Assembly (NCBI GenBank): GCA_023079485.1
Contig: CM041083.1
Span: 178,764,480 to 178,828,479, forward strand
Length of the DNA stretch: 64,000 nucleotides
Direction: 5' to 3'
Origin: Archilochus colubris
Lineage: Eukaryota > Chordata > Aves > Apodiformes > Trochilidae
Made by a program: the position numbers and the translations under genes. Below, piece after piece: positions 20,201 to 23,200 of this stretch. Below the pieces are notes generated by a model, which was given only the letters and a program-made list of their open reading frames with translations, did not search any database and was not told where the DNA came from. The number at the start of each line of letters is the position of its first letter. Positions within the stretch are counted from its first letter, which is position 1.

Positions 20201-23200
20201 ACCTTGGATCAGTAAGATTTAAAATAACTCGTGTGTATCATGCAAGCTATAAAAAGCTTGTGAAGATCTGTGAAATTATTTACAGTTTGCTAGCTGTATG
20301 GGGAATTGAAGATGGGATGTGTGACAGGTTCACCAGATGTGCTTCTGTGAAGGAGCCTTCAAAGTCTGAGCTTTCAATGAGTGTGAACTCTGCCCTCAAA
20401 GCTTTCTGCTGATGAGCATTATAGGGCTTTGCTATGAGAAGCCCACAGCAACATGACTTGTACAATACTTGTCTCTAGGAATAATGCAATTAGCAACTCT
20501 GCAGCTGTCAAATGGAGGAGAAGCCATGGTGTTTGATTTAATAGGGTGCATTTTGAACACTACTCTTATCTGACTAAATTGGTCACTAGGTGGCAGAAGG
20601 AAAATTATGTCTGCTCTTCAAAAAATGCCAACACGTGTGCTCTTGTTTTCACCTTTGTCTAGTTACTTTGGGGGTATTTTACCCTTTGGGGTGATTACAT
20701 ACAAAAATCACACCAGGTTACAAATTTCAATATTTTGCATGGTGATTTTTGTATGTAATCCATGGTTTTATTTTGAGGCAAACTATAAATGAAAGAGGAA
20801 GTAGCCAGGCATGGGAAGTGAGAGAAATTAATGGGAGAAGTCAATAAAACTTTTTTCTTTTTTTTAATACAAGCAGGCATGAAAATAGGTTTAACTTCCC
20901 TTTCAGTTCTATAATTTCTTAGTTTGCAGGTGTTGCTACTATTCAGTTTCTGAACTTAGAGCTAAAAGAAGTTTATCTCTATTGCCAAGTATGTTGAATC
21001 AAAGAGGTTTGGTAATGCTTCATCTTCAGTTAGAATAATATGGCAAAACTGAAGCTTCAACTTGAATAAGGAGGTATTGCTTTTCTCACAGTAAATGTGT
21101 CATCTTTGTAGTTCTTGGGTTTGAGTGCTTGGCTAAGACTACTTAGAACCTTATCCATTTGCTAAGATGTTGGTTGCAGTGTAATAGGTTGTATGATGTC
21201 TTGGCTATAATATCACAAAGCAATATGCATATCTATTTGTGATATTTTTCAAGATGAATATAGCTGTAGTATGTACATTTTAAAAGTGTTTTGCATCAGT
21301 TGAGACAAATGCCTTGTTTCACCATTTCTCCTCCCCAGACCATATCATCTTTTCATTCTGACAGTACCCATCTCAGGATGAGGAGTTTTAATCTGACTGT
21401 ACCTGTAAAATGACCTTTTGTAGTGATATATAAAATAATTTCAAACTTCAACCCACCAGATGGTATTTATCAACTAAACTTAGATATTTACATGTTCCTT
21501 TTTCTAACATACTGCTTTCAAGTGCATATTCCTTCTTAGTTTCAATGGAAATGATTAGGCTTGTTCTCAGGGTACCTTCTGCTGAATCATTGCCAAGAAT
21601 TTTAGCTTCTGTTCAAAACCTCACCTTAAAGATGCATCGTGAACACTACCTGTATATCATTTAGAAATGACATAATGCCATAGCTAAACACTAGAACACT
21701 TTTTTTGGAGTGCTCTGTAGGTTGTTTTAGATTGTCAGTGGGTAAGGACAGTAGATACTGCAAAAGATAGGAAATAGCTAAGGACTGTGATGCCATATCA
21801 ATGAGGTGAATATTAAAATGTATTAAGATAGGAGATGTAGTGAAATGAGGCAACCAGGTGCCACTAATTGCCAGGGAGTGGGCATGAGCTTGTGTCAAGC
21901 CCACCTGTGCCTAATTAGGGTGGGCCCCCACTGCATGAGCAGGACCAGGGGGCCAATAAAAGGCCCTCATGCGCAGTGGGGACCCACCCTAATTGGGCAC
22001 AGATGGGCTTGATACAAGCTCATGCTCACTCCCTGGCAATTAGTGGCACCTGGTTGCCTCATTTCACTACAAGGAGATAATAAATTTAAATATTTTTTTG
22101 CTTGATTATTCTGATGTGTGTTATTAGATGTCAGATGGAGTAGTTGTATTAAGGGGGAAGCGTGCACCTCCATGCATCAGGACTTTAAAGCTGCATAATC
22201 TCCATCCAAGAATACTGAAAGAACTAGTAGGTGAAATTGCAGGGTTGGGAGAAGAGATTTCCAATAATGTTTATTTAGACTGCTGGTGTCTCATGAATGG
22301 GAAGTTGGTTTGACTGTGCCTATATTTAGAAAAGGAAAGGAAAAATGATCCAGACAACTGGAGTTAGTTTTATCTAAACAGTGTGTAACGTTTTACAAGA
22401 AATTTAGAATGAATGAAAAATAAAACACTTGGAACTAACTGGAAGGTGCAACAAAGGGAAATCTCTAATCAAAAGGTGTTGCCTTATCTGGCACTTTCTT
22501 TAGAGTTCTTTTACAGAAAGAAATTAATCTACCTGCATGCCACATGGGAAGTAATAAGTTAATCTAGCAAGTGTATCATGTAGAAGAATTGTAAGATGGG
22601 GAGGAATTAGGCAGCAAGGGGAATGTAAAGTGGTACTGAAAGAAAACGTATCACTCAACTGGCAAATCATTTATAGATTTCCTCTAGAGTAGACTGACAG
22701 CAGCTGGAGTATTTTATTTGCATTTCAACAACCATCCTCCTGAAAGATGTATTGGAAGAGGAGAGGGGAAAAAAAAGAAAGGTTGCCAAAGTGAGCAGGG
22801 AATTGTGTTCAGCTTGTGTTTCAAGAGGAGACTTGCTTGGGTTGGTAAAGGAAGGCAGAGCACGCCTGTGCTGCACAGATGTCAGGGTGATGGACAAGTC
22901 AAGGAATAACTGCTGAAACTAAGGCACAAATTTAGTACAGGAGTAGAAATACATTCATTTTGGAAATGAGGCTTTTGTTCCAGTGGGTTAGTGCAGGTAT
23001 GATAGCTCTTCCTGGTGGAAAGCCCAGCAAATTTCTAAATGTGTTAAAATCAGAACTTGGTTGGCTAAGGAGGTGGTTAGGTGGTAGAATTGCCAAGGGG
23101 ACTGGAAGGGAGCAGTCTCTGTCTGTTGGCAAACTTTAGAGAGAAGCCATCACAGCAGCTTTATTTAAAGCTATTTTGGGAAAGTAATACCACAGAAAGA

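Follow-up and report, generated by a model that had tools for sequence, protein, structure and literature searches.

The window analysed here, a stretch of 64,000 nucleotides from the genome of Archilochus colubris, carries a short palindromic element whose features are collected in Table 1. Inverted-repeat detection and alignment both recovered the palindrome described in the first-pass annotation, with its AGGAGA brackets and five differences between its 99-nt arms, which are 95% complementary with 38 nt between them. Counted along the arm, they occupy positions 46, 59, 69, 77, and 90, and all five are transitions. The strand of the element was predicted to fold into a single hairpin of -216 kcal/mol (RNA parameters), with gapped pairing extending into the 38-bp centre, and no Rfam family matched the window at gathering level. 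Elsewhere in the window, three open-frame fragments (2281-2790, 39259-39651, and 53245-53763) resembled CR1 LINE remnants by eye, and a Pfam search with E values up to 0.1 matched none of the three.

Table 1. Features of the palindromic element and its flanks, in window coordinates.
Feature	Position	Strand	Basis or remark
Left target-site duplication, AGGAGA	21830..21835		Sequence; 45 of 57 family copies have an exact duplication of 6 bp
Whole palindrome, 236 bp	21836..22071		Inverted repeat with 38-nt spacer
First putative U3 copy, starting TGTAGTG	21836..21963	+	Corresponds to positions 1-130 of solo LTR L114, 96%
Left arm, 99 bp	21836..21934	+	Inverted-repeat detection
Centre, 38 bp, with putative U3-U3 junction; indel-variable between copies	21935..21972
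CCAATAAAAGG, a TATA- or polyadenylation-signal-like word (by eye)	21953..21963	+	Longer putative U3 copy terminates here
Second, shorter putative U3 copy, inverted, ending CACTACA	21966..22071	-	Corresponds to positions 106-1 of LTR L114, 95%
Right arm, 99 bp	21973..22071	-	Inverted-repeat detection
Right target-site duplication, AGGAGA	22072..22077		Sequence

The genome searched comprised 1,099,824,533 bases in 182 contigs. The exact 20-bp end of the element, written as a pattern with two two-way letters, occurred 3640 times (1766 forward and 1874 reverse), and two controls gave 0 and 0 occurrences. The same exact end had no match in viral contigs or prokaryote genomes, and the one match of the element to a phage record (E 0.8) was taken as chance. 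When the genome was searched with the window element, the best 40 of 2865 candidates were scored, and all 40 spanned the element fully or within 2 bp. A second query, for which the best 40 of 1273 candidates were scored, contributed 17 new copies among 30 loci, giving a set of 57 distinct short copies; three further new places without a fetched locus were left out of this set. Being top-scoring matches, the 57 are biased to intact and similar elements. Exact 6-bp target-site duplications (TSDs) flanked 45 of them, and all 45 sequences were different, as the first-pass annotation had expected of a mobile family with many copies in its own genome. Six of the remaining copies had a TSD with one mismatch and six had two to four mismatches, while exact duplications of 4, 7, or 8 bp were absent from the 57 copies and those of 5 bp were found in three. 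Since the element is dispersed, with near full-length matches at all 40 scored places, and since the flanks of different copies gave no exact 6-mer match in 20000 random draws, a chance origin is excluded. The combination by which LTR-element integrase is recognized, TG...CA ends with a TSD of fixed short length, was present in these 45 copies. An Rfam match to mir-584 on the short palindrome at 1504-1727 of locus L056 (both strands, 50-52 bits compared to a gathering level of 80) was taken as a hairpin effect.

A less biased sample consisted of the first 100 listed places of the 20-bp end, which lie within the first 40.3 Mb of contig 1. These formed 20 convergent pairs, spanning 111 bp (1), 206-273 bp (10), 387-474 bp (5), 565-594 bp (3), and 846 bp (1), and left 60 single ends, 18 of which were fetched and assigned to classes by reading. 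Nine of the 18 were LTR-type loci (L103, L105, L109, L113, L114, L116, L117, L119, and L120), which had the first ~200 bp in common (L116 with one gap) and then shared another sequence, unlike that of the palindrome, as far as position ~324. They represent a non-palindromic TG...CA element of ~324 bp that begins with the palindrome's end and is flanked by 6-bp TSDs, which were exact in L105, L113, L114, L119, and L120, carried one mismatch in L117, and were not clear in L109; the final bases of L105 and L120 were altered. L103 and L116 run on into a common leader, primer-site-like by eye, and the LTR-type loci were accordingly read as solo LTRs plus two proviral 5' LTRs (L103 and L116). Conserved LTR features given in a study of LTR structure are TG...CA inverted repeats and an AATAAA motif (PMC3601003), and both were seen by eye in this LTR. 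Five of the other single ends (L106, L107, L108, L110, and L112) belonged to palindromes whose second end is altered (TSD exact in four, with a mismatch in one), and four (L104, L111, L115, and L118) were fragments or half-elements. L104 (C1:4343440-4344150) contains a 30-bp stub of the family end, with CCATCC immediately after it and also ahead of it.

Internal sequence of the LTR element was found in a 3-kb piece following L116 (L123), whose open frames matched Gag_p24 (2.5e-31), Gag_p24_C (5.2e-11), Integrase_Zn (4.2e-14), and rve (3.5e-19), with a zinc knuckle match slightly under the cut-off and a third open frame without a match. Because the gag p24 frame is followed by the integrase frame after only ~70 bases (854-2714), with no reverse transcriptase between them, this looks like an internally deleted copy. 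The piece 3.7-6.2 kb past the L103 LTR (L124) contained CR1-like frames by eye, and no complete provirus was present in these two internal pieces, the first scanned for domains and the second read by eye.

Alignment to the solo LTR copy L114 accounted for both halves of the window element: element positions 1-128 correspond to LTR 1-130 in the forward direction, and element positions 131-236 to LTR 106-1 in the reverse direction. Across the 57 short copies, the mean identity to the same LTR was 95.6% for the plus arm and 96.3% for the minus arm. Because the window element and the 57 short copies match the LTR's U3 on both strands, U3 here meaning the initial part of the LTR with U3/R/U5 borders not placed, the palindrome is, judged by its sequence, two inverted U3 ends, LTR 1-130 joined head-to-head with LTR 106-1. 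The first-pass annotation had been right to see LTR-type integration in the ends and TSD size, for solo LTRs with the same tip and a 6-bp TSD exist in this genome. It had set against this that LTRs are not normally self-complementary throughout; in the one LTR copy tested, L114, inverted matches did not exceed 26 bp (73% alike), and the objection is answered by the element being an inverted U3 duplication. The palindrome is thus real, dispersed, and of retroviral origin, and its many head-to-head copies suggest that a retroviral integrase repeatedly inserted self-complementary DNA into the genome.

The two arms of one copy resemble each other more than arms of different copies do. Over the outer 85 bp, arm divergence in the 57 copies was 2.65% within a copy and 4.4% between copies, and none of 2000 shuffles was as low. 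At arm site 8, A/A was found in 46 copies, T/T in 10, and A/T in 1, and at site 11, T/T in 47, C/C in 8, and mixed bases in 2; the two sites change jointly in both arms in 55 of 57 copies. Site 78 was near-independent between the arms (A/A 34, G/A 12, A/G 6, G/G 4, A/C 1), and mixed-haplotype copies made up 2 of the 57 short copies and 2 of the 20 convergent pairs. Arm co-variation is compatible with one template as well as with two alike molecules. The two mixed-end pairs (C1:29130403-29131248, 846 bp, and C1:31514966-31515377, 412 bp) are possible mixed-template copies. The restriction to transitions seen in the window element did not extend to the family: among the arm differences of the 57 copies, 159 were transitions and 79 were transversions. 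Within the outer 85 bp of the short copies, G>A changes outnumbered C>T changes in the left arms (23 and 4), and the right arms had 15 and 12.

In 30 of the 57 copies the stop of the longer arm is LTR position 130, in 54 of 57 it falls within positions 126-137, and in 37 of 57 the longer U3 copy terminates at the CCAATAAAAGG word; the stop of the shorter arm ranges from LTR 85 to 113. Classified by left and right stops, the 57 copies fell into 22 junction classes, five of which were common to the two main arm haplotypes, AATT and TTCC. Since the longer-arm stop is mostly constant, the shorter-arm stop is variable, and junction types recur in different haplotypes, the palindromes seem to have formed repeatedly.

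A longer class of related elements was recognized from a 399-bp relative located in L056 (TSD GGTGAC). A search with the interior of this relative, in which the best 40 of 1869 candidates were scored, provided 20 of the other 39 scored places for reading (L083-L102), or 21 loci together with L056. A right arm is present in eleven of the 21, whose lengths are 384-566 bp; the TSD is exact in ten of these and has one mismatch in L094. In L095 the right end is reduced to its last seven bases with the TSD exact, and in the other nine loci the right arm is absent and no TSD is visible. Four of these nine half-elements (L085, L088, L101, and L102) stop within ~2 bases of GCCTCA, at the edge of a tRNA-like stretch, and L090 appears to continue into the inverted inner arm. 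The palindromes L083 (41-606), L084 (46-611), and L086 (111-655), 545-566 bp long, have exact 6-bp TSDs and a tRNA-like centre. Box A- and box B-like words were seen by eye in this centre, yet ARAGORN predicted no tRNA gene in seven loci and Rfam gave no tRNA match there at E up to 5, so the centre is not called a tRNA here; it might represent a Pol III unit or the copy of a primer tRNA. The first ~199 bp of the longer class match the LTR at 89%, and its inner ~120 bp are absent from the LTR copy. The LTR found in the genome differs in its second half from the inner-arm pattern of the longer class, and a pattern search, run without a positive control, gave 0 matches to an LTR ending at the inner-arm end. 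The source of the longer class may be a related LTR whose second half differs, or the class may be chimeric. Another palindrome-related element, in L122 (C1:40328700-40329130), has three head-to-tail terminal 20-mers at one end, spaced by 23 bp.

The explanation we favour, with a probability of roughly 0.6 as a whole, is fold-back DNA synthesis on a U3 strand followed by integrase joining at two U3 tips. During reverse transcription, a strand starting at the U3 tip would halt near LTR position 130, fold onto itself, and be copied, so that both arms would derive from one template, and the copied product would become a two-ended linear DNA. The lineage's integrase, whose normal substrates are a U3 tip and a U5 tip, would then join the two U3 tips to the target with a 6-bp stagger, and palindromes would be made anew many times rather than descend from a single founder. 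Fold-back synthesis fits the data because it provides one template per copy, a preferred stop, and recurrent variable junctions, and self-priming of strong-stop DNA has been described in HIV-1 (PMC4668388). We infer integration at two U3 tips from the tips themselves and the 6-bp TSDs, and LTR-type loci with the identical tip formed nine of the 18 examined single ends, five of them with an exact 6-bp TSD and one with a single mismatch. The two parts of this explanation differ in strength: the origin from two LTR U3 ends and the integrase step are very probable, whereas for the fold-back step the odds are even. Against fold-back, no priming homology was identified at the fold-back point, the halt near position 130 is unexplained, and two ends can arise only once the hairpin has been opened or copied; the mixed-haplotype copies, the near-independence of site 78, and the ~120 bp of inner non-LTR sequence in the longer class also count against it. 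Against the explanation as a whole stand the scanned internal piece without a reverse transcriptase and the CR1-like piece beside the other LTR.

Half-elements without TSDs are what would be expected from failed pairs if two one-ended retroviral DNAs, each held by its U3 tip, were joined to the target by one integrase complex and their inner ends sealed by end-joining repair. We regard this two-molecule route as unlikely, if worth serious consideration. It would account for junctions that are variable and often contain a few extra bases, for the nine of 21 longer-class loci without right arm or TSD, four of which stop within ~2 bases of one point, and for the mixed-haplotype copies. Arm haplotypes are nevertheless shared at sites 8 and 11 far above free pairing, unless both molecules usually came from the same source. 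Improbable to a greater degree is that one or a few founder palindromes spread as elements in their own right through the retroviral integrase, their centres being changed later by hairpin-tip deletions. Certain junction classes recur often (one holds 11 of the 57 copies), L072 retains a near-perfect tip, and palindrome centres are prone to deletion; on the other hand, a U3-U3 piece lacks parts required for ordinary reverse transcription, and founder descent agrees poorly with junction classes common to both arm haplotypes and with a constant longer-arm stop beside a varying shorter one.

A non-autonomous DNA transposon with terminal inverted repeats, mobilized by an undetected transposase making 6-bp TSDs, was our initial working idea and also the leaning of the first-pass annotation, which could not place the ends. 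The elements are short, palindromic, and numerous with precise TSDs, but the idea was dropped once the LTR with the same end was found, and we now consider it very improbable: the ends are U3 tips of an LTR element, a non-palindromic LTR, with gag and integrase nearby, has the identical end and first ~200 bp, no convergent ends 0.85-20 kb apart occurred among the first 100 listed ends, and a pattern in which the sequence after the end departs from the family at six places had 0 occurrences in the genome. Equally hard to credit is local rearrangement, in which a solo LTR was inverted and duplicated in situ, since it would not repeatedly restore the exact TSDs at both tips of 45 of 57 palindromes, which refute it for most copies, even if some loci, such as the one with three tandem terminal 20-mers, are rearranged.

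Taking up the favoured explanation of fold-back synthesis and integration at two U3 tips, we tentatively propose, at somewhat less than even odds, that the lineage routinely made part of its U3 into self-complementary DNA, anew each time from one strand rather than by descent from a founder, and that its integrase took two U3 tips, so that a single germ line gained copies in the order of a thousand, a figure extrapolated from the first 100 listed ends and the 18 single ends examined. Within the same reading, and just as tentatively, U3-U3 palindromes might constitute a third kind of retroviral insertion besides the provirus and the solo LTR. If they were made afresh, they preserve, like fossils, reverse transcription that went astray and an integrase that accepted two U3 tips. 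Repeat annotation relying on structure only would list these insertions among unknown MITEs, yet they are products of a retroviral integrase. Each copy also adds a long near-perfect hairpin, which could yield double-stranded RNA or a fragile site. We found no description of a high-copy, integrated U3-U3 inverted repeat in the open-licence papers searched, and a repeat-library name may well exist.

The closest known system is the solo LTR of an endogenous retrovirus, here one with gag p24 and integrase, which the palindrome resembles in its TG...CA ends, 6-bp TSDs, and a U3 identity of 95-96% to one solo LTR copy. A solo LTR comprises all of U3-R-U5 and has a U3 tip on one side and a U5 tip on the other, whereas the window element consists of LTR 1-130 plus inverted 106-1, without R/U5 and with inverted U3 rather than U5 at its second end. 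Palindromic MITEs and foldback elements are likewise short, dispersed, near-perfect inverted repeats with a duplicated target; in contrast to them, no transposase-bearing partner with the family's ends 0.85-20 kb apart was seen among the first 100 listed ends, and its ends and TSD belong to an LTR element of the same genome. TRIMs are miniature LTR retrotransposons with two direct LTRs, a primer site, and a polypurine tract, and they too are non-coding passengers of LTR-element machinery, whereas the palindrome consists of a single inverted U3 pair with TSDs directly at its tips. HIV-1 self-primed strong-stop DNA is, like the palindrome, self-complementary retroviral DNA arising from reverse transcription; it is described as abortive and as forming at the minus strand's R region (PMC4668388), whereas the elements described here are U3 palindromes of which the germ line carries many integrated copies.
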